Assembly: GCA_025358315.1 (NCBI GenBank)
Contig: JANYKA010000006.1
Span: 1-33,655 of the forward strand
Length of the DNA: 33,655 nucleotides
Origin: Gemmatimonadota bacterium
GTDB taxonomy: Bacteria > Gemmatimonadota > Gemmatimonadetes > Gemmatimonadales > Gemmatimonadaceae
Reading direction: 5' to 3'
Shown here: one piece after another, positions 10,759 through 31,341 of the stretch
How positions within the stretch are numbered: the first letter of the stretch is position 1
How the letters are laid out: the number at the start of each line of letters is the position of its first letter
Translations under genes and position numbers: made by a program
Notes under the pieces: generated by a model
What the model was told of the DNA's origin: nothing
Databases searched by the model: none
The model's input: only the letters and a program-made list of their open reading frames with translations

Positions 10759-12603
10759 TCAACTGACTACGTACGCTTCCATCGCGTAGTACTCTGCCAG
10801 CCCCAGGCGATTGAGCATCTCGGCAGTTTCTTTGTTCCGTGCTTCGACCCGTTGCCAAAACTCACGCTCGTCGTGCGCGCCTGGGAACGGCGCCGAATCT
10901 TTCTGGCTCTGGTGCTTGAAGATCGCCTGGATTTTAAGCTTCAGTTCTTCCTGAGACATTGGCACCAACCACGTCGCGTCAGCGACCGGCCACTCCTGCC
11001 ACGCGCCACGGTACAGCCAGATCTCCGGCAGCGGGCCCTTCATCTCGGCGAGCGCCCGGTCAATGGCTTCCTTGCACATTCTGTGCGTGCCATGCGGGTC
11101 ACTCAAATCGCCCGCAACGAAAATGATCTGCGGCCGGAACTCCTCAAGCAGCGCTCGGACAATAGCGACATCCGTCGAACCTATCGGATCTTTTCGTACT
11201 TTGCCGGTCTGATAAAATGGAAGGTTCAGGAAGCGGGCATGGTCACGGCCGAGGCCGATGGTCTCCAGCGCACTCACGGCCTCGCCTTCCCGAATGATGC
11301 GCTTCAAGTCTTGAATGGCAGCGCTGTCTACGGTTCCGGGCTCTTTGCTGTGAAGGAATTTGCGAACCATCGCGGTGAATGCCGGCACATCCGCTTTACC
11401 GATATTGCGCTCCCGCGCCAGCCGTTCTAAAAAATCCACATAGCGTCGCACGTCGTGGTCGAAAACGGCGATGTTGCCGCTCGTCATGTATGCCACGGTG
11501 ATCGCGTTCTTGTTTTCCGCCAGCTTGTGGAGGATCCCGCCCATCGAAATTACATCGTCATCGGGATGCGGAGAGAAGACGAGGATTCGCTGACCTTCCG
11601 GCAACTTGGACTTTCCGCGAATGCGACTGCCGAGCGCGTTAAACACGAGGCCATTCACGGCGCCCGGAGATCCGTGGCGCGCCACGAGCGACGACAGTTG
11701 GTGCTCGGCGTAGTCGCCTTGTGTGAGCTTGAGAATTGCCTTGCCCGTGTTCAGCGAAAGCCATACCACGGCACGCACGGTGAGCTCGGGTGTCCAACTG
11801 ACTTCGTCTACCAACCAGGGTGTGGCAATGCGGGTAAGATCGGCGGCGGCACTGTCGAGGTAGAATGTCGTGTTCGGATGGCGCTGCAAAAAAGTGGCAG
11901 CTACTTCGAGTTCGACCTCGCCCTCCACCGCGCGGCGGACGATCGCCGACTTGTGTTCTCCTGTGGCCAGGATCGCGATCTCCCTCGCTTCGAGGATGGT
12001 CGCGACTCCCATCGTCACGGCCTCGGTCGGCACATGTTCTTCGCCGAAGAAATCTGCGGCGGCATCGCGGCGGGTGATGACGTCGAGCTGGACCAACCGT
12101 GTCCGGCTTTCCGAGCCGGAGCCGGGCTCGTTGAAGCCGATGTGGCCGGTTTTTCCGATGCCCAATAATTGAAAATCAATCCCGCCCGCTGCGCGAATCG
12201 CGGTCTCATAGTCAGCGGTCATCGTATCGACTTGCTCACGGGGAACGCGGCCGTCAGGAACGTGCGTGTCGGCTGGATTGATGTCGATATGATCGAACAA
12301 ATTCTCTTGCATGAATCGCCGATACGAGTGAATACTCTCCGGCGACATCGGGTAGTACTCGTCAAGATTAAAGGTGATGACCCCGCGAAAACTGAGTCCG
12401 TCTTCGTGGTGCATCCGAATCAATTCCCGGTAGACGCCAATCGGCGTGGAGCCGGTAGCGAGGCCGAGCACGGGATGGGCGCCGGCGGCGCGTCGCTCGG
12501 CGATTACGTCGGCAATACGGCGGGCGATCGTACGGGAAAGTGCCTCGTTGCTGTCGAGCACCACAGTCGGAATCTTCTCGAGGCGGGTCGAAGAGTTAAG
12601 CAT
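10759..12603 (-). CDS. nagB: Glucosamine-6-phosphate deaminase fused to a PIG-L (LmbE-like) N-deacetylase
   Basis: A 614-aa two-domain protein. Residues 12-265 are a NagB-type sugar-phosphate isomerase/deaminase: LGLATGSTPIGVYREL (47-62), TFNLDEYYPM with D81/E82, and GKTGHIGFNEPGS with H154 and E159. Residues about 335-600 are a PIG-L family zinc deacetylase with FSPHPDDD (343-350) and the second metal motif SDPHGTHR (501-508). Coupled, the enzymes could remove an N-acyl group and then deaminate and isomerise glucosamine-6-phosphate to fructose-6-phosphate. The residue equal to E. coli NagB D141, part of the catalytic relay, is T152 here, so full deaminase activity is not certain. No signal peptide is seen, so it is cytoplasmic. 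It is first in a minus-strand operon with an acylase and a small membrane protein. Confidence 0.92.
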   Translation of the reverse strand: MLNSSTRLEKIPTVVLDSNEALSRTIARRIADVIAERRAAGAHPVLGLATGSTPIGVYRELIRMHHEDGLSFRGVITFNLDEYYPMSPESIHSYRRFMQENLFDHIDINPADTHVPDGRVPREQVDTMTADYETAIRAAGGIDFQLLGIGKTGHIGFNEPGSGSESRTRLVQLDVITRRDAAADFFGEEHVPTEAVTMGVATILEAREIAILATGEHKSAIVRRAVEGEVELEVAATFLQRHPNTTFYLDSAAADLTRIATPWLVDEVSWTPELTVRAVVWLSLNTGKAILKLTQGDYAEHQLSSLVARHGSPGAVNGLVFNALGSRIRGKSKLPEGQRILVFSPHPDDDVISMGGILHKLAENKNAITVAYMTSGNIAVFDHDVRRYVDFLERLARERNIGKADVPAFTAMVRKFLHSKEPGTVDSAAIQDLKRIIREGEAVSALETIGLGRDHARFLNLPFYQTGKVRKDPIGSTDVAIVRALLEEFRPQIIFVAGDLSDPHGTHRMCKEAIDRALAEMKGPLPEIWLYRGAWQEWPVADATWLVPMSQEELKLKIQAIFKHQSQKDSAPFPGAHDEREFWQRVEARNKETAEMLNRLGLAEYYAMEAYVVS

Positions 12604-14721: not shown

Positions 14722-17619
14722 GTGCGCGATGACGCTCCGGCGCGACGCCAGTCGTCGCTCCTTCGGCTCAGCGCTGCCATTGCGTCGGCACAGACCGAAG
14801 AGGACGTCTGTCGCGCCGTCGTCGACGGCCTGCACGACGAGGCGCTGGGCTACGCGTTTCTCGGCGTGTTCCTCCTCGATCCCGCGACGGGCGACCGGTT
14901 ACTTCGCGCGGCCGTGGGTTGGGCCGATGTGCCGGCGGGGATGCGAGTCCCGGCCGGTACCGGCTTGAGCGCCCGCCCACTCGAAGATGGGCAAACACGC
15001 TACACACCGGACGTCAGCAAAGAACCGGCGTACATCCCCGGGCTGTTGACCGGATCCGAATTGGATGTGCCGCTCCGTGCGAGTGGCGATGTGTTCGGAG
15101 TGCTGGTGGTGGAGAGCCGTGAGCCCAATGCGTTCAGTCATCACGACATCGAAATCCTTACTGCGGCGGCACAGCAAGCGGGGATCGCGCTCGCCAGAAT
15201 TCGATTGCTCGACGAGATGCACCGTATGGTCGAGTCCGAACGCCGCCGAGCCGACGAGCGTGAGGCGCTGCTCGATACTATTTCGGATCTCTCCACGGAT
15301 CTTGAGTTGTCGCGCCTGCTCGAGGCCGTGCTGTCGCGCGCCGTCACCTTGCTCGGCGCCGCAGGCGGCGAACTGGCCACGTACGATGAAACGAAAGGCG
15401 ACCTTATTATCGCGGCAAATTACAACATGCGGGAAGATTCTCGCGGCACGCATCTGAAAGTTGGCGAAGGTGCGATGGGGTTGGTGGTGCGCACCGGGGA
15501 GCAGCTAATGATCCCCGACTATCAGAACTGGGCGGGGCGTGCGGCGCAGTACGCGCGCATCGACGCCCGCGCCGTGGTAGTCGCACCGCTGTTGATTGGT
15601 CGCCGCGCCGTCGGCGCGATAAATGTTTGGCACGAAGATCCGGCGCGGGCGTTCGGTGAAGCGGATCGCCGCCTATTGAATTTGTTCGGCCAGCAAGCGG
15701 CGATCGCATTGGAGAATGCCCGACTCTTTACGGCGGCCCGGCGTGAGCGACAGTACTTCGAAGTGCTCGTGGATAACAATCCGGTGGCGATTGTCGTTCT
15801 CGACACGGAGCATCGGATCATATCATGCAATCCGGCATTCGAATTGCTCTATGGGTACAAACAGGCAGAGGTGGTGGGACAGGATCTGGATCAACTGGTC
15901 ACCACCCCCGAAAGTCGGCACGAAGCGGTCTCATTCACGGTGCAGGCGTCAGAGAACCAGATGGTGCAGGGGTTCGGCAAGCGGCGCCGGAAGGACGGCT
16001 CCCTGGTCGACGTCGAGGTGCTCGCCGTGCCGGTGGTCGTCGACGGTGAACACGTCGGCATGATGGGTCTGTATCACGACGTGACTGAACTCTTAAGCGC
16101 GAGGAAAGTCGCCGAGGCGGCGAACTCGGCTAAAAGCCAGTTTCTCGCGAGCATGAGCCACGAATTGCGCACGCCATTGAACGCCATCATCGGATACTCC
16201 GAGATGTTGGAGGAGGAAGCCGCGGAGCGTGGGCTGTCCGACTCGGTCGCCGACCTGCAAAAAATCCGTTCGGCTGGCCGCCACCTGCTGTCCCTAATTA
16301 ATGATGTGCTCGATCTTTCAAAAATCGAAGCTGGCAAGATGGAGCTGCATTTAGAGACGTTCGATCTGCGGCCAGCGATCGAGGCGGTGGCTGCCACGGT
16401 GGCGCCATTAATCGAGAAGAACGGGAATCGCCTCGCGCTCGAATTGGCGGATGGGCTCGGTGCCATTCGGTCCGATGTGACCCGCGTGCGCCAGATTTTG
16501 CTCAATCTGCTTTCGAATGCCAGCAAGTTCACGGAAGGTGGAGTCATTACCGTGCGTGCCACACGCGACGGCGATTCGATTATCCTCGTTGTGCAGGATA
16601 CGGGCATTGGCATGACGCCCGAACAGCTCGGCCGGCTGTTCGTCGCATTCGCGCAGGCCGAGGCGTCGACGGCGAGCAAGTACGGTGGCACCGGCCTGGG
16701 GTTGGCGATTAGCCGGATGTTTTGCGAGATGTTAGGCGGCGCGATCACCGTGGCCAGCACGCCGGGGACGGGCACGGCGTTCACCGTCCGCCTCCCGGTC
16801 GAAGTCCGTGAAATCAGCGCCACGCCGACCATTGCAGCGGCGGCGACGACCAATGGTGCTGCGGGCACCGTGCTCGTGATCGATGATGATCCAAACTCCC
16901 GCCAGCTCGTGGCGCGAATGCTCATTAAGGATGGATTCCGTGTCATCGAGGCGGCGGGTGGGGAAGAAGGCCTTGCCCTTGCTCGTGCGGAGCGGCCCGA
17001 TGTGATTACGCTCGATGTGCTCATGCCGGTGCTCGATGGTTGGGGTGTGCTCACCGCACTCAAAGGCGACAAGGATCTCGCGTCAATTCCCGTGGTGATG
17101 TTGACCATCACCGACGAAAAAAATCTCGGGTTCTCGCTTGGCGCGTCGGAATACCTGACAAAACCGATTGACCGCGCCCAGCTGAGTGAAGTGCTCAAAC
17201 GCTATCGGCGCACGCCGGGCGGGAAAGTGCTGATCGTCGAAGACGATGCCCCGACGCGTGCCGTGCTCCGTCGCTCGCTGGAGAAAGCAGGGTGGAGTGT
17301 GAGTGAGGCCGAGAACGGACGGATAGGCTTGGAGAAACTCGACACGGAAGAGCCGTCGCTCGTACTGCTGGATCTGATGATGCCCGAAGTAGACGGATTT
17401 GCGTTTCTTGACGGCGTACGCTCGCGCACTTTTAAAGAGGCGCCGTCGGTGGTGGTCATTACGGCGAAGACACTGACGGAATCCGATCGGCAGCGACTGA
17501 GTGGCGGAGTCCGTGAGGTGATTCAAAAAGGCTCCCAAGACATCGATGGTCTGCTCGGCGATGTGCGACAGCGCGTGGCAGCCTACGCGCGACGGTCACG
17601 CACGGCCGATCATCAATGA
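14722..17619 (+). CDS. Soluble hybrid histidine kinase, GAF-GAF-PAS-DHp-CA-REC-REC
   Basis: A 965-aa sensor kinase without a transmembrane segment. Order: GAF about 15-165, GAF about 190-338, PAS about 345-455 (VDNNPVAIVVLDTEH, CNPAFELLYGYK), DHp with phospho-accepting H480 in SHELRTP, CA with N599, D626 (DTGIGM) and [10 protein letters not shown], receiver 1 with D765 (LDVLMP), receiver 2 with D884 (LDLMMP). All catalytic boxes are intact, so it should autophosphorylate in response to a cytoplasmic cue. The GAF ligands are unknown. Receiver 2 has QKG instead of the usual K-P turn after the last strand, as in many tandem-receiver hybrids. The GTG start is chosen because an in-frame TAG lies upstream at 14611 and because the two paralogues start at a similar distance from the LLRLS motif, but it lacks a clear ribosome-binding site. 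The stop overlaps the next start by ATGA. Confidence 0.93.
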   Translation: MRDDAPARRQSSLLRLSAAIASAQTEEDVCRAVVDGLHDEALGYAFLGVFLLDPATGDRLLRAAVGWADVPAGMRVPAGTGLSARPLEDGQTRYTPDVSKEPAYIPGLLTGSELDVPLRASGDVFGVLVVESREPNAFSHHDIEILTAAAQQAGIALARIRLLDEMHRMVESERRRADEREALLDTISDLSTDLELSRLLEAVLSRAVTLLGAAGGELATYDETKGDLIIAANYNMREDSRGTHLKVGEGAMGLVVRTGEQLMIPDYQNWAGRAAQYARIDARAVVVAPLLIGRRAVGAINVWHEDPARAFGEADRRLLNLFGQQAAIALENARLFTAARRERQYFEVLVDNNPVAIVVLDTEHRIISCNPAFELLYGYKQAEVVGQDLDQLVTTPESRHEAVSFTVQASENQMVQGFGKRRRKDGSLVDVEVLAVPVVVDGEHVGMMGLYHDVTELLSARKVAEAANSAKSQFLASMSHELRTPLNAIIGYSEMLEEEAAERGLSDSVADLQKIRSAGRHLLSLINDVLDLSKIEAGKMELHLETFDLRPAIEAVAATVAPLIEKNGNRLALELADGLGAIRSDVTRVRQILLNLLSNASKFTEGGVITVRATRDGDSIILVVQDTGIGMTPEQLGRLFVAFAQAEASTASKYGGTGLGLAISRMFCEMLGGAITVASTPGTGTAFTVRLPVEVREISATPTIAAAATTNGAAGTVLVIDDDPNSRQLVARMLIKDGFRVIEAAGGEEGLALARAERPDVITLDVLMPVLDGWGVLTALKGDKDLASIPVVMLTITDEKNLGFSLGASEYLTKPIDRAQLSEVLKRYRRTPGGKVLIVEDDAPTRAVLRRSLEKAGWSVSEAENGRIGLEKLDTEEPSLVLLDLMMPEVDGFAFLDGVRSRTFKEAPSVVVITAKTLTESDRQRLSGGVREVIQKGSQDIDGLLGDVRQRVAAYARRSRTADHQ

Positions 17620-20600
17620 CGCCGGAGAATCCCACGGTGGGTGCGCCCAAGCCGAGCCAAACTGCAGGTGGTCATCGGGAGGCCGCCCTTCTGCGCCTCA
17701 GTACCGGCATCGCCATCGCAGAATCAGAAGGCGATATCTGTCACGCGGTCAGCGAAGGCCTGCTCGACGCGTCGCTCGGTTTTGATTACATCGCGGTGCT
17801 ATTGGTCGATGCAGCGACGGGCGATCGTGTCGTGGTGTCGAGCCGGGGCTCAGGAGAATCCACGGCCGGTCTCCACGTACGGCCTGGGGAAGGGTTGAGC
17901 GAACTGCCGCTCCTTGATGGACGGCTACACTACACGCCGCAAGCAACGCAGGACACACGATACTTGCCGACTCGCAATTCAGGGTCGGAGGTCGACGTGC
18001 CACTGTTGATCAACAAGAAACTCGTCGGCGTGCTGGTGGTGGAGAGCAATCGTCCGCATGCCTTCGGCACCGCGGACTTCGAAGTCCTGCGTGCCGCCGC
18101 GAACCAGGCGGGCATCGCACTCGGCCGCGCGCGACTCCTCGCCGCCGAACGGCGACGTGCCGATGAGCAGGAGGCGTTGCGCGCCACGATTGCCGATCTC
18201 TCTGCCCGGCTTGAGTTGCCGGATCTATTGCAAGCAGTCTTGGAGCGTGCCGTGCAACTCCTGCATGTGAGTCATGGGGAGCTGGCGATTTTTGATGCGG
18301 AACGTGACGAACTGGAGATTGTCGCCAGCTATAATGTGGGCAAACAGAAAACCACCGGCACCCGGATGCGCGTTGGCGAGGGCGCGATGGGCCATGTCGC
18401 GCTGACGCGGGAGCCATTCATTATTCCGGACTATCAGGCGTGGGCGGCACGATCGGAACAATATGCGCGTGCTGAGTTCCACGGTGTGATGGTGGCGCCC
18501 CTCATGATGCAACGGCAGTTGGTGGGTGCCATCGCCTTCATGGATCGTGATCCGGCACGGACCTTTGGTGCGGAAGATCTCCGTCTCATCGATCTCTTCG
18601 CGCCTCATGCGTCCGTTGCGATCGAGAACGCCCGACTCTTCACCGAGGAGCGTCGCCGCGCCGATGAGCAACGCGCCCTGCTCGACACGATGAAAGATCT
18701 CGTTGGAGAGCTGGAGCTATCGAAGGTGCTTGAGCGGGTACTGGAGCGTGCCGTCGCGCTGTTGCACGTGACGGGGGGTGAACTTGCCACGTATGACGCT
18801 GTCGCCGGCGATCTCGTTATTGTGGCCAGCCAGAGTATGGGCACGAATGCGGTGGGCACGCGGATCGCGCTTGGTGAAGGTGCGGTCGGTCGCGTTGCCC
18901 AGACGCTGGAGTCGCTCATCATTCCCCGATACCAGGAGTGGGCGGGCCGGTCGGCGCAATACACGCAGAGCACGGTGCAGTCGGTGATGTGCACGCCGTT
19001 GATCATCGGGTCGCGATTGGTCGGGGCGCTCGCCAGCGTGCACTCCGATCCCAGTCGCGTATTCGGCGAGCGGGACCTGCGCCTGCTCGAACTCTTCGCA
19101 CCAGAAGCGGCAATCGCCATTGAGAACGCGCGTCTGTTCACACAGGCAGAACATCAAAAGCAATATTTTGGCGCGCTGGTGGCGAACAGCCCGGTCGCGA
19201 TCGTCACGCTCGATACCAAGCACATGGTCGTCTCCTGCAACCCGGCATTCCTGACGTTGTATGGATACACCGAGGCCGAAGTACTTGGGCAACATCTCGA
19301 TGACCTCATTACCACACCGGAAGCACGGTCGCAGGCGGCCCAATATACCGAGCAGGCGTTGGCGCACGAGACGGTGCGGGTGATCACCCAGCGAAGCCGG
19401 AAAGACGGTACGATCGTCGACGTCGAAGTGCTTGGCGTTCCCGTGGTCGTCAATGGCACGCTCGTCGGGATGATGGGGCTGTACCACGACATCACCGCCA
19501 TGCTGCAGGCGCGGCGTGAAGCCGAAACGGCCAACTCCGCGAAAAGCCAGTTTCTCGCGAGTATGAGCCACGAACTCCGCACGCCGCTCAACGCGATTAT
19601 CGGATACAGCGAAATGATCGAGGAAGAGGCGACGGAACAAGGGCACGACCGGTATGTCCCCGACCTCCAGAAAGTGCGGTCCGCGGGCCGCCATTTGCTG
19701 GCCTTGATCAACGACGTGCTCGATCTTTCGAAAATCGAAGCGGGCAAGATGGAGTTGCATCTTGAGACCTTTGACGTGCGGCAAGCTGTCGAGGCCGTCG
19801 CGTCAACCGTCACGCCGCTCACGGAGAAGAACGGCAACACGCTGCAACTTGAGTTCGGCGGCAATCTCGGTGCGATGCGAGCCGACCTCACTCGCGTGCG
19901 GCAGGTACTCCTGAACCTGTTGTCCAACGCGAGCAAGTTTACCGAGCGCGGGACGATTACGCTGCAAGCGAGTCGCGACGGCCATCACATCGTATTTACA
20001 GTGGCGGACAGCGGCATCGGCATGACACCCGAACAGATTGGCCGGCTGTTTCAAGCTTTCTCGCAAGCCGAGGCGTCGACGTCAAGTAAATACGGTGGCA
20101 CCGGCCTTGGGCTGGCGATCAGCAAATTGTTTTGCGAGATGATGGGCGGCGCAATCACGGTGGCGAGCACTCCGGGGCGCGGGACGGAATTCACCGTGCG
20201 AATTCCCGTCGAGGTCCGTGATCCTCTTGAGTCCGTCGCCACTGGCGAGCCGGTCGCTGCCAAGTCGGTTTCCGCTATCGTCGGCACCGTGCTGGTGATT
20301 GATGATGACCCCGCCGCGCGCGCGATCACGCGCCGGTTGTTGGAACGTGAGGGCTACGGCGTTATTGAGGCGGCCGACGGTGAAACCGGTCTCCGTCTCG
20401 CCAAGGAGCATCATCCCGATCTCATCACTCTCGACATTTTGATGCCGGGGATGGATGGCTGGGCAGTATTGAGCGCTCTCAAGGCCGATCCAAAGTTGGC
20501 AGGGACACCGGTGATTCTTCAAACCATTATGGAAGACCGCAACCTCGGCTTCTCGTTTGGCGCCGCGGAGTATCTCACAAAGCCGATTGATCGCAAACAG

Positions 20601-21011
20601 TTGGCTGCGCTGGTGAAGCATTATGTGCCGACCGCGTCCACCGGGCCGGTACTCGTCGTCGAGGACGATGCCCCGACGCGGGCGCTCCTTGGGCGCGCGC
20701 TCACGAAGGCCGGATGGACAGTTGCCGACGCGGAGAATGGACGCGTTGGGCTCGAATGGATCGCCGACACGCGACCCGCTCTCGTACTCCTCGACTTGAT
20801 GATGCCCGAAATGGACGGATTCGAATTCCTCGACGCACTGCGGCGCGACGAGTCACGGCGGGACATTCCGGTCGTCGTCATCACCGCCAAGACGCTGACC
20901 GATGCCGATCGGCGTCGCCTGAACGGCGGCGTGGAACGGGTGGTGCAAAAACGCACGCTCGATACCGACGCGCTACTCGCTGAAGTGCGGGCGCTGGTGC
21001 CGGCCCGATGA
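17616..21011 (+). CDS. Soluble hybrid histidine kinase, GAF-GAF-GAF-PAS-DHp-CA-REC-REC
   Basis: An 1131-aa paralogue of the flanking kinases with one more GAF domain: GAF1 about 20-170, GAF2 about 190-340, GAF3 about 357-507, PAS about 515-628, DHp with H652 (SHELRTP), CA with NASKFTE, DSGIGM and [10 protein letters not shown], receiver 1 with D940, receiver 2 with D1060. GAF2 and GAF3 resemble each other and repeat with a period of 167 residues. It has no membrane segment. Start ATG 17616 lies inside the preceding stop (ATGA), and its own stop overlaps the next gene in the same way, so the three kinases are translationally coupled. The second receiver ends in QKR in place of K-P. The sensed signal is unknown. 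The paralogy suggests parallel inputs into one downstream pathway. Confidence 0.93.
18150..19151 (+). repeat. Two 501-bp units encoding duplicated GAF domains in the second kinase
   Basis: The linker RRRADEQ and the GAF behind it occur at 18150-18650 and again at 18651-19151. Matching segments include [19 protein letters not shown] against [19 protein letters not shown], and [17 protein letters not shown] against [17 protein letters not shown]. The copies are diverged, so the duplication is old, but the period is exactly 167 codons. Confidence 0.75.
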
Positions 21012-23896
21012 CCCGCGACCCCAACGGCCACGACGCCCGGCGCCAGGTCGCACTGCTACGACTATCCGCCGAGATCGCCGCCGCGCCAGACGAAGAAGAA
21101 ATCTGCCGGGCCGTCGTCAATGGCCTTCGCGACCCCGCGCTCGGCTATGATTTCCTTGGCATCTTTTTGCTCGACGATGCCACGGGCGACCGCGTCCTTC
21201 ATGCGAGCGTGGGCTGGCCCGACGCTCCCAAGGGATGGCGGGTGCATCCGGGGCAGGGGCTGAGCGAGCGTCCCCTGCACAACGGCAAGTTGCATTACAC
21301 GCCTGACGTGACGCGCGAAGCCGGCTACTTGCCGAGCCTGAACAGCGGATCGGAAGTTGATGTGCCGTTGCAAACCGGCAGTCAGGTGTTTGGCGTCCTC
21401 GTGGTTGAGAGCACCAAGCCTGACGCCTTCGACGCGAACGACCTGGAAATTCTGACGGCCTCTGCGACCCAGGCGAGTATTGCGATTGGACGCGCCCGTT
21501 CGCTTGCCGCGGAGCGCCGCCGCGCCGACGAACAGCAGGCGTTGCTCGACACGCTCGCTGATCTGTCCGGCGAACTCGAATTGAGCAAGTTGCTCCAGGC
21601 CGTGCTGCGCCGTGCGACCACCCTACTCGGCGTGAGTGGCGGTGAACTCGCGATTTACGATGAGGTGCACAAAGAACTCGAAATTGTCGCGAGCTTGGAT
21701 ATTGGCGTGGACTCGACCGGGGCTCGTCTCGCGCTCGGTGAAGGGGCGATGGGGCACGTGGCAGTCACGCACGAGCCGATCTGCATTCCGGAATACCAGG
21801 AGTGGCTTGGCCGCTCCGGAAAGTATTCCGATGTGGAAGTGCATTCAGTGATGGCCGCACCGCTGCTGATCGGGAATCGGCTTGTGGGCGCATTCGCCTG
21901 CGTGCACGATGATCCGGCCCGCAAGTTCGGGCCTGATGATCTGCGCCTGCTGAATCTGTTCGCGCCGCAGGCTGCCGTAGCGATCGAGAATGCCCGCCTC
22001 TATACCGCAGCCCAACGGCAGAAACAGTATTTCGAAGACTTGGTGCTCAATAATCCGGTGGCGATCGTCACATTGGACAACGAGCACAATATTGTTTCGT
22101 GCAATCCGGCGTTCGAGCAACTCTATGGCTATACGCAGGTCGAAGTCATCGGCCGCAATCTCGACGAGTTAATTTCTACCGCCACATCGCACTCCGAAGC
22201 CGTCGCGATTACCCAGCACGTGCTTCGGGATGGTGCGGTACGGAGTATCGGCCAACGTCGCCGCAAGGACGGCACACTGGTGGACGTTGAGGTGCTCGGC
22301 GTCCCGGTGCTCGTCGAAGGAAAACTCGTCGGGCTGATGGGCTTGTATCACGACATCAGCGAGTTGTCGCAGGCCCGGCTTGCCGCAGAAGAAGCGAACA
22401 ACGCCAAGAGTCAGTTCCTGGCGAACATGAGCCACGAATTGCGCACGCCGCTCAACGCCATTATCGGCTACAGTGAAATGCTGGCCGAAGAAGTGGCCGA
22501 TATCGGTCACGACGAACTCGCTCCTGACCTCGGGAAAATCCGGTCGGCGGGGCGGCATTTGCTGGCGTTGATTAATGACATACTCGACCTCTCCAAGATT
22601 GAGGCAGGGAAGACCGACCTCTATGTCGAAGAGTTTGATGTTGCCGTGATGTTGGACGACGTGTCGACGACGATTCGACCGTTGGTGGAAAAGAATTCGA
22701 ACACGCTGGTCGTGCGATCTGTCGGGCAAGGCACCATGCGCGCCGATCTGACGAAAGTGCGGCAGATGCTGCTCAATCTTCTGTCCAACGCGTGCAAGTT
22801 CACCGAGCACGGCACCATCACATTGGAAGTGGAGCGGGTCGCGACACCGTCATCGGGCCCGGATGAACTGTACTTCCGCGTGATCGACTCAGGCATCGGA
22901 ATGACGTCCGAACAAATGGGTCGGCTGTTTGAGGCGTTTTCGCAGGCCGAAACGTCCACGAGTAAGAAGTACGGCGGTACGGGGTTAGGTCTTGCAATCA
23001 CACGCCGATTCGCTCAGATGATGGGCGGCGATGTGACGGTGACGAGCGTGCCCGGCCACGGATCAACGTTCATCGTGCGACTTCCGGCTGAGCCACCGGA
23101 AATTGAAGCGCGTCCGCCGAGCGAGGCGCCGGGTTCCGGCCGTGCAGGGACCGTGCTCGTGATCGACGACAACGCCCAAGCGCGCGAACTGGTGCGGCGA
23201 TTCCTCGCCGACGAAGGGTTTCGCGTGATCGAAGCCGCCGACGGAGTCGCGGGGCTCGCGTTGGCACAACGCGATCGTCCGGACGCAATCACGCTCGACG
23301 TGCTCATGCCGGGCATGGATGGATGGGCGGTACTCGCGGCGCTCAAGGCCGATCCGGCGCTCGCCGATGTTCCCGTGATCATGCTGACCATGCTCGACGA
23401 CCGGAGTTTGGGCTTTGCACTTGGCGCGACGGAATATCTGACGAAGCCGGTGGATCGCGATCGGTTGCGGGCACTGCTTGCGCGTTACAGCCGGAATGGT
23501 GGGCGCGACGTACTGGTGGTTGAGGACGACCCGTCCACACGGGCGCTGCTCCGGCGGCAGTTGGAGGCGGACGGATGGACGGTGGCAGAAGCCGAGAATG
23601 GGCGCGCCGGCTTGGACGCCGTGAGTCGACATAAGCCGTCAATTATTTTGTTGGACCTGATGATGCCGGTTATGGATGGTTGTCAGTTTGCGACGGAACT
23701 TCGTCGGCATGAGGCGTGGCGTGACATTCCGGTGGTGGTCATCACGGCGAAAGATCTTACGCCCGAGGAGCGACGTGCCCTCAATGGAGATGTGCAGGGC
23801 GTGTTGCAGAAAGGAGCTCTTACGGCGGACGAGCTGTTGCGCTCGATCCGCGATCTGGTCAAGGCCAATGGTGTCGAACCCGAAGGAGGGAAGTAG
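21008..23896 (+). CDS. Soluble hybrid histidine kinase, GAF-GAF-PAS-DHp-CA-REC-REC (third paralogue)
   Basis: A 962-aa protein with the architecture of the first kinase: GAF about 10-160, GAF about 180-330, PAS about 338-450, DHp with H476 (SHELRTP), CA with NACKFTE, DSGIGM and [10 protein letters not shown], receiver 1 with D764 (LDVLMP), receiver 2 with D883 (LDLMMP). It is soluble. All kinase boxes are present. The first GAF shares the SGSEVDVPL motif with its paralogues, which points to a common ancestral ligand pocket or fold element. The sequence between DHp and CA is the most diverged of the three. Its ATG overlaps the upstream TGA (ATGA). It ends three bases before the stand-alone receiver gene and supplies that gene's ribosome-binding site (GGAGGG) from its last codons. 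Confidence 0.93.
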
Positions 23897-23899
23897 GAC

Positions 23900-24277
23900 A
23901 TGCCGAAAATTCTACTGGTCGAAGACAACGAAATGAACCGCGACATGTTGTCGCGTCGACTCCAGCGAAAGGGATTCGAGATCGCATTGGCCGTTGATGG
24001 TCCGGAGGGAGTAGCGATGGCGCTGGCCGGCGGGTTTGACCTGATCCTGATGGACATGAGTCTCCCGGAAATCGACGGATGGGAAGCCACGCGACGCGTG
24101 CGCGAGGCGGAAACCGGTACGGGGAGACACGTGCCGATCATCGCGTTGACGGCGCACGCGATGTCGGGCGACCGCGAGAAAGCGATGGCCGCCGGATGCG
24201 ACGACTACGATACTAAACCGGTGGAGCTCGATCGTTTACTGGGCAAGATGGCCGCCCTGTTGGGCACGGTGGAATGA
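23900..24277 (+). CDS. Stand-alone response regulator receiver (DivK/CheY-like)
   Basis: A 125-aa single REC domain with nothing attached: acidic pocket E8/D9 (LLVEDNEMNR), phospho-accepting D52 (LMDMSLPEIDG), conserved threonine in IIALTAHAM, and lysine in DTKPVEL. The DNEMNRDML start and AAGCDDYDTKPV end are typical of DivK-like shuttles that receive phosphate from hybrid kinases. Without an output domain it must act through protein contact or as a phosphate carrier or sink. A strong GGAGGG lies 11-16 bases upstream, within the end of the third kinase. The stop overlaps the start of the Ser/Thr kinase fusion (ATGA at 24274-24277), so these two proteins are made together, and a direct interaction is the simplest hypothesis. 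Confidence 0.93.
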   Translation: MPKILLVEDNEMNRDMLSRRLQRKGFEIALAVDGPEGVAMALAGGFDLILMDMSLPEIDGWEATRRVREAETGTGRHVPIIALTAHAMSGDREKAMAAGCDDYDTKPVELDRLLGKMAALLGTVE

Positions 24278-26193
24278 CTGGACTGAATACCCCTGAGGCG
24301 GTGGCGGAGTTGCGCCACGAACTCCGCACGCCATTGAATCTGATCATCGGCTACTGCGAAATGCTGCTCGAAGACGCCACGGTTGACGTCCGACGGACGG
24401 CACTGCAGCAGACGTTGGTTGCTGGACGCGACATACTCGAACGCATCAACGCGGCGGTGCCATCGTCGCGCGGCGAAATCAGCGACGTAGAATTCGAAGC
24501 GTTGCGTGCGTCTTTGCGCGAGCCCCACGGACGGATTCTTGCCGCGACGTCGGCGCTGCTGACCGATTGCGGAGACATCGATTCGGAATTCGAGCGCGAT
24601 GTCCGACGAGTCCGCAGTTCCACTGAACGATTACTGACCGTGGAACTGTCCATGGGTCGGGGCGCAAACCACATTGCCATCACGGTGGGTCACCCTACCT
24701 TTGATTCGGGTACGGCGCGACCGGCGGTACGGTCAGCGCACATTCTCGTGGTCGACGATCAGGAAGACAATCGCACCGTGCTGGAGCGGCGGCTCACCCG
24801 TCAGGGGCACACCGTGGAATGCGTGAGCGGCGGACACGCGGCGTTGTCGCAACTGCAGCATGCGCGATTCGATCTTGTGTTACTTGATGTGCTCATGCCG
24901 GATCTCGACGGCCTCGCCGTGTTGGAGCGCATCAAGGCCGATCCGAAGACGCGCGACATTCCGGTGATTATGATTTCGGCGCTGGACGATGTGGCGAGTG
25001 TTGTGCGATGCATCGAACGCGGCGCCGAGGATCACCTCCCTAAGCCCTTCGATCCGGTGATTCTCCGGGCGCGGATCGGCGCGTGTCTGGAAAAGAAACG
25101 TCTTCGCGATGTCGAACTCGAGTATTTGCGTGAAGTGGGCCGGGTTATCGAAGCCGCCACCGCGGTGGAGGCGGGAACGTATGTTGGTGGCGGTCTCGTC
25201 GAAGTGGCCCGCCGTGGTGACGAACTGGGCCGCCTGGCGCGCGTGTTCGACACGATGGCTGACCATGTGCGGGCGCGCGAGACGCGACTCAAGGACCAGG
25301 TCGAAGCGCTGCGGCGCGAGATCGCCGGCGCGACGCTTTCCTCGCGGCCCGTTTTGCAAAGCGAGGCTCCAAGTCTGCCCACCGGCTCATTGCTTGCCGA
25401 CCGATATGATATTCAGGAGGAGATTGGCAGCGGCGGCATGGGCATGGTGTATCGCGCCATCGACCGCGAACTCAATGAACAGGTGGCGATCAAAACGTTA
25501 CGCGCGGAGATGTTGCGCGAACCCGGCTTGCTTGATCGATTCAAATCCGAGATCCGGCTGGCTCGACACATTTCGAATAAACATGTGGTGCGAACGCACG
25601 ATATTGGCGAACGCGACGGCGTCTATTATCTGACGATGGAATACGTGGAGGGAATCACGGTGCGCTCGCTGCTGGACACGCGCGGCCGTTTAGCGGTCGC
25701 TCCGACATTGGCGATCGCGAGTCAGCTCGCCCAATCACTGGTTGCTGCACACGAGCAAGGGGTAATTCATCGCGACATTAAACCGCAAAACCTGCTGCTC
25801 GATGCCAATGGGGTACTCAAGGTCATGGACTTCGGCGTGGCTCGTTTGCGTGGTGTCAGCACCGGAGTGACTGAAGTCGGTCAGCTCGTGGGGACACCAC
25901 AGTATATGGCGCCGGAACAGCTGTTGGGCGAGGATTTCGATGAGCGGGTGGATCTTTTTGCGATGGGCGTGGTGTTGTTCGAATGTTTAACCGGACGACT
26001 GCCGTTCGAGGGTACGAACGTCATGTCGATTATTGCGCGACTGATGCGCGACGAGGCGCCGTCGCCGTCCAGTCTCAATCCGGACGTCTCGGAAGATGTG
26101 TCGGCACTCGTGCTGCGATTGTTGTCGAAAGAGCCGAACGGGCGACCAGCGACTGCCAGTGACGTGGTGCGTCAGCTCTCGGACGTCAGTTAA
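24274..26193 (+). CDS. DHp-REC-HAMP-like-Ser/Thr protein kinase fusion lacking a histidine-kinase ATPase domain
   Basis: A 639-aa soluble protein. Residues 10-60 are a DHp helix pair with H15 in RHELRTPLN. Residues about 74-125 look like a second DHp-like pair (ASLREPHGRILAATSALL, then RRVRSSTERLL) in which the histidine position is A79. No CA domain (N, G1, G2 boxes) follows. A receiver spans 154-272 with D161/D162, D205 (LLDVLMPDLDG) and K257. A HAMP-like linker (about 291-350; GDELGRLARVFDTMADHV) leads into a complete Hanks-type kinase: GSGGMG (385-390), K407 (VAIK), HRDIKPQN (499-506), D519FG and APE (546-548), ending at 636. The protein can probably phosphorylate Ser/Thr targets, with receiver phosphorylation by the neighbouring kinases as a likely control. 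It is the last gene of the operon, followed by a hairpin. This domain order is unusual. Confidence 0.92.
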   Translation: MTGLNTPEAVAELRHELRTPLNLIIGYCEMLLEDATVDVRRTALQQTLVAGRDILERINAAVPSSRGEISDVEFEALRASLREPHGRILAATSALLTDCGDIDSEFERDVRRVRSSTERLLTVELSMGRGANHIAITVGHPTFDSGTARPAVRSAHILVVDDQEDNRTVLERRLTRQGHTVECVSGGHAALSQLQHARFDLVLLDVLMPDLDGLAVLERIKADPKTRDIPVIMISALDDVASVVRCIERGAEDHLPKPFDPVILRARIGACLEKKRLRDVELEYLREVGRVIEAATAVEAGTYVGGGLVEVARRGDELGRLARVFDTMADHVRARETRLKDQVEALRREIAGATLSSRPVLQSEAPSLPTGSLLADRYDIQEEIGSGGMGMVYRAIDRELNEQVAIKTLRAEMLREPGLLDRFKSEIRLARHISNKHVVRTHDIGERDGVYYLTMEYVEGITVRSLLDTRGRLAVAPTLAIASQLAQSLVAAHEQGVIHRDIKPQNLLLDANGVLKVMDFGVARLRGVSTGVTEVGQLVGTPQYMAPEQLLGEDFDERVDLFAMGVVLFECLTGRLPFEGTNVMSIIARLMRDEAPSPSSLNPDVSEDVSALVLRLLSKEPNGRPATASDVVRQLSDVS

Positions 26194-28047: not shown

Positions 28048-31000
28048 ATGAGCCCTCAATTGCCCACCGCGACGCGTCGCGCGCTTCACGCACTCCTTGC
28101 CAGCCTGACCATGGCCGCGGCCCCCGCTGCCGCTCAGAAGCCCCGCACTCCGCCGCCTAGTGCGACTTCCACCACAACCCCCCAGTACTCGGCATCCACA
28201 TACTCCGACCCAAAAGCGACATCCAGTAGTCTCAAGGCGCTCCGCTGGCGAAACGTTGGCCCAATGCGCGGCGGTCGTGCTGTCGCGGTGACCGGCGATC
28301 CCACGAAGCCAATGGTGTTCTACTTCGGCAGTGTAAACGGTGGAGTGTGGAAGACGGAAAATGGCGGCGCACGCTGGTCAAACATCACCGATGGAAAGTC
28401 GGACATCTCTTCCGTCGGCGCGATAGCGGTCGCCCCGTCGGATGCAAATGTGATCTATGTCGGCACCGGTGAATCGCAGCTGCGCGAAGACCTCACGTTC
28501 GGCACCGGGATGTACCGGTCGACTGACGGGGGTGCCACCTGGCAGCATCTGGGCTTAAGCGATGCGCAGCAGATCACGAACGTGGTGATCGATCCGCGCG
28601 ATCCGGATCGCGTCTTCGTCAGTGCCATCGGGCATGCATTCGGTCCGAATGCAGAACGCGGGGTTTTTCGTACGACGGATGGCGGGAAAAGCTGGAAGAA
28701 AGTGCTCTTCATCGACGAGTTCACGGGAGCGCAAGATTTGTCGATGGATCCGTCTAACCCGCGCGTCGTGTACGCGGCGATGTACAAATTTCAGCGCACG
28801 CCGTGGTCGATGAACGCCGGCGGCGGCCGCAGCGGACTATGGAAAACCAGCGACGGCGGCGACACGTGGAAGGAACTCTCCTTCAACGAAGGGATGCCAA
28901 AACTACCGTTAGGCAAAATTGGTGTCGCCGTGTCTCCCGCCAATCCGCGCCGAGTGTATGCCAGCATTGAAGCTCCCGACTCGGCAGGTGGAATCTTTCG
29001 CTCCGATGACGCCGGCGACAGTTGGCAGCGCGTCAACTCCGATCAGACGTTCCACGTCCGGCTCTGGTATTACTCGGTGATCACCGCCGACCCGCTCGAT
29101 GAGAATACCGTTTATGTAATGAACCTGACCGTCCATCGCTCGATCGACGGCGGCAAAACGTTTGCGCCGATCCGTGTTCCGCACGGTGATACACACGTGC
29201 TCTGGATCGACAAAAAAGATTCCAAGCGCATGATCAACGGCAACGATGGAGGCGCCACCATCAGCTACGATGCCGGCAAAACGTGGTCCAGCATATACAA
29301 CCAACCCACTGCGCAGTTCTACCACGTGACAACCGACAATCAATTTCCGTATCGGATTTACGGTGGCCAGCAGGATAACTCGGCAATCTCCGTGATGAGC
29401 CGTTCGGATGACGGTGGCATAGGTGAGCGAGACTACTACTCGACTGCCGGATGCGAAAACGCCACGGTCGCAGTGGATCCGCGCAATCCGTCAGTCACAT
29501 ACGGCGGTTGCTATCTGGGAGCGTTTTCGCGCTACGATCATTCGACGCGACAGGAACGCGACATCTCTGTGACGCTTCGCAATTACGATGGGTGGGCAGC
29601 GAAGGATGTTCCGGAACGATTTCAGTGGACGTTCCCGGTTCTTATCTCGCCGCACGATCCCGCCACATTATACGTGACATCGCAGCACGTGTGGCGCACT
29701 CGCAATGAAGGAGCAAGTTGGGAGAGAATTTCTCCCGATCTCACGACGCATGATGCGAGCACGTTGCAGAGCACGGGCGGCATTCACGGAGAAATGACGG
29801 GCGCGGAATGGTATGCCACGATCTACGCATTTGCCGAGTCACCGAAAGTGAAGGGCGTGCTGTGGGCGGGCTCGGATGACGGAATGGTGCACGTCTCGCG
29901 CGATGGCGGTGAGCATTGGGAAAACGTGACACCCAAAGACTTCGGTAAGCTCACGCGCACCGCGCATATCGATCCGTCGCCGCATGATCCCGCCGTGGCG
30001 TATGTCTCTGCCAATCGATACCAGCAGGATGATTTCAAGCCGTATCTCTGGAAGACGTCCGACTATGGCAAGACGTGGACGGCGATTGTGAATGGCATTC
30101 CGGCCAACGCATTCACGCGCACCCTGCGTGAAGATCCGGTGCGTCGCGGACTGCTCTACGCCGGCACCGAGTTGGGCGTCTATGTTTCATTCGACGACGG
30201 TGCGCGCTGGGAACCGCTGCAACTGAACCTTCCGCGCGTGAGTGTGCGCGACCTGCAAGTCCACGGGAACGACCTTGTGGCCGCTACTCACGGCCGTGCG
30301 TTTTGGGTGCTGGACGATATTTCCATGCTTCGCCAGTTCGCCGACAGCGTATCCCGCAAACGTGTGCATCTCTTTCAGCCATCGACGGCGATTCTTTGGG
30401 ACGGCGGTCGTGGTCGTTCCGACACGGGAGAAAATCCCGCGGCCGGTGTTTATGTCGATTACTACCTTAAAGATGTCGCAGTCGGGAAAGTATCGATCGA
30501 CTTCTTGGACAGAAGCGGCGTCGTGATGCGAACCTTCTCCAACGAAACGGACGCGAAGTCCGATTCTCTCGCAAAAAAAACCGGGCTCGATTCCCTCGCT
30601 GAGCGTACGCGAGCGGCGAGAAAGGACAGTATCGCCTATCAGCCCAGTGATTCTGTGGTGCAAGGGCGGGCGGGAACGAATCGATTTGTGTGGAACCTGC
30701 ATTATCCGGACGCCAAGCGGATCAAGAACACCGTGATTGACGAGGGGCATTTGGGCGGACCCTGGATTGTCCCGGGCACGTACACGGTGCGGCTGATCGC
30801 GGGAGCAGATACCATATCGCGCCCATTCACGGTGATTGCGGATCCGCGCGTAAAGACGACGACGGCCGAGTTGACACAGCAGTTCAATAGCGCCATGCGC
30901 ATCCGCGAACGGATCGCCGACATCGCCGAAAATGTCGCGCGGGTCGAGGATATCCAGTCGCAATTGGACGCGCGGGTTACACAGACGAAAGGGGAAGGGT

Positions 31001-31341
31001 ATGCCGGACGCGTGTCAGCCGCTGCAAAGGCGCTACGAGTCAAACTCGAGGAGATCCGGGGCGAACTGTACGAAGTGAGCTGCCATGTGGATCAGTGTAC
31101 GCTCGACCAGCAGGTGAAGTTGTATAACTGGTTCATCACGCTCAATGCTCAAGTGCAAACGGGGGCGTACGCGCCGACCAAACAACACGGTGAGATTTAT
31201 ACTGACTTGAAGGGGAAGCTGGACGTGCAGCTTCGGCGCCTGCAGTTGATCGAGGACACGGACCTCAAAGCATTCAACCGGCTAATGGATGAATTGAAGG
31301 TGCCGGGTATTTTTGTGACGCCCAAGAAGATCGTGTCCTAG
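28048..31341 (+). CDS. Large secreted BNR/Asp-box beta-propeller protein (sortilin/VPS10-like)
   Basis: A 1097-aa protein with a signal peptide ending AAAPAAAQ (about 29-30). The body up to about residue 780 contains at least nine Asp-box motifs of the form S/T-x-D-x-G-x-T/S-W: STDGGATW, TTDGGKSW, TSDGGDTW, SDDAGDSW, SIDGGKTF, SYDAGKTW, SRDGGEHW, TSDYGKTW and SFDDGARW. These define the sialidase/VPS10-type propeller fold. The C-terminal 300 residues are a separate region with a beta domain (NRFVWNLHYPDAKR, TYTVRLIAGADTISRPF) and helices (ELTQQFNSAMRIRERIADIAENVARVEDIQSQ). Proteins of this layout are abundant in Gemmatimonadota and related soil bacteria; binding or glycan-hydrolase roles are suspected but not established. 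ATG 28048 lies 47 bp from the divergent lipoprotein frame. The stop overlaps the DoxX-like start by one base. Confidence 0.88.
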   Translation: MSPQLPTATRRALHALLASLTMAAAPAAAQKPRTPPPSATSTTTPQYSASTYSDPKATSSSLKALRWRNVGPMRGGRAVAVTGDPTKPMVFYFGSVNGGVWKTENGGARWSNITDGKSDISSVGAIAVAPSDANVIYVGTGESQLREDLTFGTGMYRSTDGGATWQHLGLSDAQQITNVVIDPRDPDRVFVSAIGHAFGPNAERGVFRTTDGGKSWKKVLFIDEFTGAQDLSMDPSNPRVVYAAMYKFQRTPWSMNAGGGRSGLWKTSDGGDTWKELSFNEGMPKLPLGKIGVAVSPANPRRVYASIEAPDSAGGIFRSDDAGDSWQRVNSDQTFHVRLWYYSVITADPLDENTVYVMNLTVHRSIDGGKTFAPIRVPHGDTHVLWIDKKDSKRMINGNDGGATISYDAGKTWSSIYNQPTAQFYHVTTDNQFPYRIYGGQQDNSAISVMSRSDDGGIGERDYYSTAGCENATVAVDPRNPSVTYGGCYLGAFSRYDHSTRQERDISVTLRNYDGWAAKDVPERFQWTFPVLISPHDPATLYVTSQHVWRTRNEGASWERISPDLTTHDASTLQSTGGIHGEMTGAEWYATIYAFAESPKVKGVLWAGSDDGMVHVSRDGGEHWENVTPKDFGKLTRTAHIDPSPHDPAVAYVSANRYQQDDFKPYLWKTSDYGKTWTAIVNGIPANAFTRTLREDPVRRGLLYAGTELGVYVSFDDGARWEPLQLNLPRVSVRDLQVHGNDLVAATHGRAFWVLDDISMLRQFADSVSRKRVHLFQPSTAILWDGGRGRSDTGENPAAGVYVDYYLKDVAVGKVSIDFLDRSGVVMRTFSNETDAKSDSLAKKTGLDSLAERTRAARKDSIAYQPSDSVVQGRAGTNRFVWNLHYPDAKRIKNTVIDEGHLGGPWIVPGTYTVRLIAGADTISRPFTVIADPRVKTTTAELTQQFNSAMRIRERIADIAENVARVEDIQSQLDARVTQTKGEGYAGRVSAAAKALRVKLEEIRGELYEVSCHVDQCTLDQQVKLYNWFITLNAQVQTGAYAPTKQHGEIYTDLKGKLDVQLRRLQLIEDTDLKAFNRLMDELKVPGIFVTPKKIVS

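Follow-up and report, generated by a model that had tools for sequence, protein, structure and literature searches.

A tandem-DHp-receiver front end joined to a Ser/Thr kinase in Gemmatimonadota: a candidate single-chain histidine phosphotransferase with exchangeable outputs

How a Ser/Thr kinase might come under the control of histidine-aspartate phosphotransfer within one polypeptide is the question raised by a gene in a 33,655-nucleotide stretch of DNA from a Gemmatimonadota bacterium (assembly GCA_025358315.1, contig JANYKA010000006.1, positions 1 to 33,655 of the forward strand; hereafter the window). The gene is a single open frame with an ATG start (24274-26193, forward strand), the ATG sharing 4 nt with the stop codon of a preceding receiver gene, and it encodes a protein of 639 amino acids (aa). 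A preliminary description had read the protein as a pair of dimerisation and histidine-phosphotransfer (DHp) helical hairpins, a receiver, a HAMP-like linker and a Hanks-type Ser/Thr kinase, and had singled out three residues, all of which are correctly assigned in this frame: H15 in a RHELRTP motif, A79 in a RASLREP motif at the position of the histidine, and D205 in a LLDVLMP motif. We propose, with the chances of being right or wrong about evenly divided, that the protein belongs to a widespread and apparently undescribed cassette (histidine kinase, stand-alone receiver, tandem-DHp-receiver-output) that would represent a third build of histidine phosphotransferase, in which a duplicated DHp hairpin in one chain makes its own four-helix bundle. 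Tying the hairpins together would make one of the two histidines dispensable, and lineages would differ in whether hairpin 2 or hairpin 1 has lost it. The unit would act as a plug-in front end with swapped outputs, to which Gemmatimonadota added a HAMP-Ser/Thr kinase module, probably once, creating a direct His-Asp to Ser/Thr converter.

Sequence profile analysis of the 639-aa protein with Pfam recovered HisKA on the first hairpin (residues 9-59, 38.5 bits versus a cut-off of 26.9), and no HATPase or Hpt family among its matches at E ≤ 0.1. HATPase was also not among the 11 Pfam families detected at E ≤ 0.01 in the 30 rows of an alignment (A7) of the window protein with 29 of the 31 Gemmatimonadota-type loci described below (without the cut L075 and L079), and with NCBIfam the whole protein had no match above a curated cut-off among the 25 matches listed of 116 families. 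Judged by its sequence, the protein is thus without an ATPase domain and so is not a histidine kinase. In alignment A7 HisKA was detected on hairpin 1 in all 30 rows, and both downstream domains are complete as described earlier: the receiver residues D161, D162, D205, S235 and K257 and the kinase residues K407, E426, HRD (499-501), N506 and DFG (519-521) are each present in 30/30. The linker between them scores 22.3 bits against HAMP in the whole protein and 24.0 bits as an isolated fragment, both below the Pfam cut-off of 25, and we retain the HAMP-like designation because 20 of the 30 family members match HAMP at E ≤ 0.01.

A search with residues 1-152 against 200 Gemmatimonadota genomes recovered 21 matches, its own included, with E < 1e-15 over both hairpins, the next match being at 7e-11. 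The 20 other relatives all possess the receiver and the kinase, the latter being cut by the end of the contig in L046. Throughout this set, the window included, H15 and D205 are retained (21/21), the residue at position 79 is not histidine in 20 (the exception, L058, has H), and an acidic residue follows H15 in 19. A wider scan of titled prokaryote genomes, from which the best 80 of at least 501 relatives were kept, added 31 loci of the Gemmatimonadota type (L059-L088 and L098, the title of L065 reading simply 'bacterium'), of which L079 ends before the kinase and L075 within it. The 29 full-length relatives from these named records keep the kinase residues, 13 of them being the same records as relatives in the phylum set; the domain order is accordingly found well beyond the window. 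A hybrid histidine kinase that had lost its ATPase domain through an assembly error was considered, and is ruled out by the same architecture in the 20 phylum relatives and the 29 named-record relatives. Within its own genome (82% complete), no other of the 76 matches spans the front end and the kinase together. The closest kinase there is a dCache-HAMP-kinase protein (L002), with 47% identity over aa 283-632; it shares the HAMP and a related kinase domain with the window protein, and has a dCache sensor where the latter has the tandem DHp and the receiver. With L002, the genome already has a HAMP-kinase unit with another input.

The second hairpin is the less obvious part of this architecture. 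Pfam HisKA does not detect it even at E ≤ 10 in any of the 21 phylum members, so that its homology rests on profile comparison and on intermediate relatives, although checks of the front end by profile search and structure prediction did recover HisKA on hairpin 1 and four helices overall. In a profile-profile comparison the two hairpins matched with a probability of 94% (E 9e-8) over 55 columns, with H15 facing A79; when the comparison was repeated with trimmed alignments the score was 38.3, twice the highest value reached in 200 column shuffles (19.0), while a reversed profile gave 8.5. In relatives from other phyla the HisKA motif, histidine included, is frequently seen on hairpin 2, and four of these relatives (L096, L101, L102, L112) show two Pfam HisKA stretches. 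By these sequence comparisons the common origin of hairpin 2 with hairpin 1, and the loss of its histidine, are confirmed, as the preliminary description had supposed for this N-terminus; a chance motif as the source of hairpin 2 is ruled out by the profile match, the shuffles and the relatives with histidine. A predicted model of residues 1-131 built from 70 sequences (pLDDT 89.9, pTM 0.83) has helices at 7-34, 38-61, 71-97 and 104-120, and the two hairpins of one chain are thus predicted to form a four-helix bundle within that chain. What had been called a dimerisation module taking phosphate is on this model better read, probably, as a single-chain pseudo-dimer, i.e. a phosphotransferase; the other part of that claim, control of the Ser/Thr kinase through transfer from H15 to D205, stays plausible.

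The other 49 of the best 80 relatives comprise three ordinary histidine kinases with an ATPase domain (L120, L123, L137), which were left out of the family counts, one protein without a receiver in its open reading frame (L090), and 45 DHp-receiver proteins from phyla that include Chloroflexota, Acidobacteriota, Pseudomonadota, Myxococcota, Thermodesulfobacteriota, Verrucomicrobiota, Planctomycetota, Nitrospirota, Cyanobacteriota and Actinomycetota. In an alignment (A6) of the window protein with 69 relatives, leaving out those cut or incomplete (L075, L079, L089, L090, L106, L124) and those with one hairpin (L109, L132), each row carries histidine in one or both of the two histidine columns, as expected if the hairpin pair is one bundle needing at least one acceptor. 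The H15 column is histidine in 69/70, the sole exception (L116) having Q there and retaining the second histidine. All 30 Gemmatimonadota rows have histidine first and another residue second, as had been noted for A79; the second position takes seven residue types in these rows, where H15 is invariant. Among the other 40 rows both histidines are present in 20, the first column alone in 19 and the second alone in one (L116); the 19 include by alignment L128, whose hairpin-2 histidine is placed in the H15 column. Read by chain order, L116, L128 and L032 are the proteins in which hairpin 2 alone bears the histidine, and hence either hairpin can retain it. With a receiver and an apparent cyclase after such a pair of hairpins, L032:1261-2826 (genome G178, same class) is a mirror image of the window protein.

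The part following the receiver is variable. Outputs were counted in the 42 of the 45 DHp-receiver proteins not of the Gemmatimonadota type in which the receiver is followed by sufficient sequence and a kinase is absent (L106, L109 and L132 included): Pfam identified Guanylate_cyc in 19, SpoIIE in 10, a sigma-54 activator in 3, and HD_5, an alpha/beta hydrolase, CheR and HATPase in one each. The last six (L099, L113, L126, L129, L133, L136) are short tandem DHp-receiver proteins of 397-452 aa with no catalytic output, four of which match HAMP (three above the cut-off) and two of which match nothing. A kinase follows the receiver in L117 from Acidobacteriota, and two more tandem proteins from Gemmatimonadota (L032 and L035) have an output that reads by eye as a cyclase. 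In a midpoint-rooted tree of 73 tandem-receiver stretches, whose bootstrap is not fully settled, the window and 30 Gemmatimonadota kinase-type loci form one group (99/93) with L117 elsewhere, and five output labels require 14 changes, versus a mean of 35.5 for shuffled labels. Because of this grouping and these label changes, it is likely that the kinase fusion in Gemmatimonadota arose once, and the tandem-DHp-receiver front end appears to be a reusable part that is not specific to Ser/Thr kinases. The design that had been proposed as a built-in bridge between two-component and Ser/Thr signalling is not particular to kinases: cyclases, SpoIIE phosphatases and sigma-54 activators are borne on similar front ends.

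Several individual proteins extend this range of architectures. Five of the six short relatives are followed by a gene that reads by eye as a MinD/ParA-like ATPase, the second gene along in L129, and none was seen in L126; this ATPase is a possible separate-gene output of the short forms. In Nitrospirota, L112:9983-12766 is a single chain that combines the tandem DHp and the receiver with a nucleotide cyclase and a hydrolase domain of the Apyc1-like kind, bringing together a maker and a possible breaker of a messenger. L107:2-1744 and a 575-aa frame upstream of L114:13866 have HisKA and/or ATPase parts after the receiver, in the place where a kinase would stand if it served as output. In a planctomycete (L113:3807-5693) a separate Ser/Thr kinase gene is found two genes past the tandem-DHp-receiver gene, which may be by chance.

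The gene neighborhood of this front end was also analysed. We scored a stand-alone receiver frame on the same strand within 200 nt upstream in 81 loci (37 from Gemmatimonadota, the window not being among them, and 44 others), with 14 loci that were the same records in the two scans counted once and L107 (2 nt upstream) and L090 not scored. Such a receiver is directly upstream in 71 of the 81 loci (36/37 Gemmatimonadota and 35/44 others), often with the same 4-nt overlap as in the window, and a histidine kinase lies within 1.5 kb in 54 of these 71 (33/36 and 21/35, respectively). By comparison, a receiver is directly upstream of only 2 of 79 histidine kinase frames with at least 500 nt upstream in the same loci (Fisher p 1e-31), a contrast that is partly built in, as the loci are related and kinase frames ahead of a receiver cannot also stand behind it, and that is not independent evidence of function. 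This arrangement, in which genes for a histidine kinase and a stand-alone receiver precede the one for the tandem-DHp-receiver-output protein, is repeated in different phyla.

In the Spo0F-Spo0B-Spo0A relay the order of steps is kinase, stand-alone receiver, DHp and receiver-output, and the gene order in the window matches it. Hpt domains, another class of phosphotransferase, have a single acceptor histidine. They resemble the window protein, as modelled, in their four-helix bundle, which in the usual phosphotransferases is monomeric (PMC3433190, in extract), and differ from it in origin, the Pfam matches of its front end being to HisKA and not to Hpt. Parallels are also offered by Spo0B and ChpT, which the same extract describes as four-helix bundles of two subunits, ChpT having in addition an atypical ATPase-like domain (PMC3433190), and by PhyT, a degenerate histidine kinase that an extract of PMC5898713 presents as relaying phosphate from the single-domain receiver SdrG to PhyR. 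Common to these three and the window protein is a DHp-type four-helix bundle (here predicted) without working ATPase function, placed between receivers. However, whereas the bundle of Spo0B and ChpT is built from two chains (PMC3433190), the window protein has both hairpins in one chain, no ATPase family, one histidine gone, and the acceptor receiver and output fused on; by analogy it would work like Spo0B and ChpT without being a member of their group. Response regulators with an enzyme output, such as CheY-cyclase and similar proteins, share the order of receiver and then enzyme domain (PMC1183210, in extract), and it is the DHp-derived bundle before the receiver and the Hanks kinase as output that set the window protein apart from them. 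A Ser/Thr kinase and two-component parts also occur in one chain in the cyanobacterial HstK, which has Ser/Thr kinase and histidine kinase domains to judge by how Phalip 2001 is titled in the citations of PMC1262709 and PMC2176072, while the window protein has a receiver and no ATPase domain. The parts of the protein, the fusion of a Ser/Thr kinase with two-component domains (HstK) and receivers with enzyme outputs are hence already known, and the interest lies in a system that is widespread, modular and testable; neither the tandem DHp-receiver effector nor its cassette appeared among the matches listed in the open-licence literature, by title and start of abstract.

Since the two hairpins are consecutive, and given the precedents of PhyT, ChpT and Spo0B, we read the N-terminus as a candidate single-chain phosphotransferase feeding D205. 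We consider it rather probable that it acts in a Spo0-like relay running from a kinase through a stand-alone receiver, the tandem hairpin and the fused receiver to the output, here a Ser/Thr kinase. At least one of the three hybrid kinases encoded upstream would autophosphorylate and load the stand-alone receiver, from which H15 of the tandem-DHp bundle would take over the phosphoryl group; transfer from H15 to D205 within the chain might then follow, and the phosphorylated receiver could act via the HAMP-like helices on the kinase domain. The preliminary description had the phosphate come directly from a separate histidine kinase, and such kinases are indeed adjacent, but it had missed the stand-alone receiver at 23900-24277, and the recurrence of this receiver and of the gene order across phyla makes the four-step relay, in our reading, likelier than direct kinase transfer. 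An upstream kinase whose ATPase domain phosphorylates H15 in trans, or which passes its phosphate straight to D205, with the stand-alone receiver as a side branch, appears unlikely to us, although it would suit the HisKA match on every hairpin 1 of alignment A7 and the nearby histidine kinases without an adjacent stand-alone receiver in L060, L114 and L115. Against it, the adjacent receiver is kept in 71/81 loci and in 17 of the 71 this receiver has no histidine kinase within 1.5 kb, although for 8 of these the upstream sequence is shorter than 3 kb. That the tandem DHp serves mainly to drain or remove phosphate from D205 or from the stand-alone receiver through its HExxT motif seems improbable. 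T19, the equivalent of the threonine that an extract of PMC3510030 identifies as the phosphatase residue of HisKA, is threonine throughout the Gemmatimonadota rows (30/30), while the other 40 have T in 36 cases and S in 4; yet it belongs to a motif general in bifunctional kinases (PMC3510030), and so does not single out a phosphatase, and P20 and N22 (70/70) and R18 (68/70) are kept as well. More doubtful still is an adaptor that merely pairs with the DHp domains of the kinases and carries no phosphate: the tandem DHp is akin to those domains and is encoded beside histidine kinases, but a docking surface would need no histidine, and H15 is retained in 30/30 where the hairpin 2 site has seven residue types.

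Certain observations weigh against the relay through a single-chain bundle. An acidic residue (E or D) follows H15 in 29/30 Gemmatimonadota and 40/40 other rows (69/70), a residue which in HisKA proteins is needed for the autokinase and not the phosphatase activity, as stated in the extract of PMC3510030; because it is expected if the ATPase domain of a kinase phosphorylates H15 directly, its retention does not favour the relay over direct transfer. The cassette is also not universal: 10 of 81 loci are without an adjacent stand-alone receiver, and a receiver with no histidine kinase within 1.5 kb, despite at least 3 kb of upstream sequence, occurs in 1/36 Gemmatimonadota and 8/35 others. In many loci the nearest histidine kinase is without a receiver of its own, so that 'hybrid' is not a fixed attribute of the cassette. 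L109 and L132 show a single hairpin before the receiver; both are SpoIIE-type proteins and may dimerise in the usual way. On the structural side, a Foldseek search of the 1-131 model against the PDB gave 599 matches at E ≤ 10 and none at E ≤ 0.001, with no histidine-kinase name among the 50 matches listed of the 599, which were mostly other helical-bundle proteins. Solved DHp bundles are mostly built across chains; this would account for the null fold search, which we do not use as support. At the sequence level the comparison is favourable: the tandem profile matched 21 distinct PDB sequences at E ≤ 0.001, all named as histidine kinases or as something related (RetS, DivL and ethylene response sensor are examples), but these mostly cover the first ~100 profile positions and speak mainly for hairpin 1. 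The full-length predicted model (pTM 0.54) retains the front helices and the receiver and kinase elements, with the receiver joined to the tandem DHp via a low-confidence linker, and leaves us unsure of the domain arrangement.

If the relay operates as proposed, it would constitute a full His-Asp relay that ends, inside one polypeptide, with the switching of a Ser/Thr kinase, in a cassette compact enough to be rebuilt in vitro. Uncharacterised cyclases, phosphatases and kinases of poorly cultured phyla could then be predicted to be relay-controlled through similar front ends. The versions with both histidines, the first only or the second only also provide a natural experiment on the reason for the paired histidines of DHp bundles.

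Table 1. Coordinates of the cassette genes and of the domains of the 639-aa protein within the window.
Feature	Position	Strand	Basis and remarks
Hybrid histidine kinase 1 (GAF-GAF-PAS-HisKA-HATPase-REC-REC)	14722..17619	+	Pfam
Hybrid histidine kinase 2 (three GAF, PAS, HisKA, HATPase, REC-REC)	17616..21011	+	Pfam; 4-nt overlap with each neighbour
Hybrid histidine kinase 3 (GAF-GAF-PAS-HisKA-HATPase-REC-REC)	21008..23896	+	Pfam
Stand-alone receiver, 125 aa, proposed phosphate shuttle from the histidine kinases to H15	23900..24277	+	Response_reg 88.3 bits; conserved position
639-aa protein: tandem DHp, receiver, HAMP-like linker, Hanks-type Ser/Thr kinase	24274..26193	+	Open reading frame, Pfam and full-length model
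DHp hairpin 1, aa 7-61, proposed phospho-acceptor H15 (codon 24316-24318)	24292..24456	+	HisKA 38.5 bits; predicted helices 7-34, 38-61
DHp-derived hairpin 2, aa 71-120, A79 (codon 24508-24510) replaces histidine	24484..24633	+	Profile-profile match to hairpin 1; predicted helices 71-97, 104-120
Receiver domain, aa 157-268, proposed phospho-acceptor D205 (codon 24886-24888)	24742..25077	+	Response_reg 97.6 bits
HAMP-like linker, aa 290-333	25141..25272	+	Pfam HAMP 22.3 bits (cut-off 25); spans two long predicted helices, 261-300 and 317-354
Hanks-type Ser/Thr kinase domain, aa 378-629, complete catalytic residues	25405..26160	+	Pkinase 181 bits

Elsewhere in the window, the reverse strand encodes a penicillin-amidase family protein (8152-10719) and a chain in which a Glucosamine-6-phosphate isomerase domain is fused to a PIG-L deacetylase domain (10759-12603), and a large protein with repeats of the Sortilin-Vps10/BNR type is encoded on the forward strand (28048-31341).

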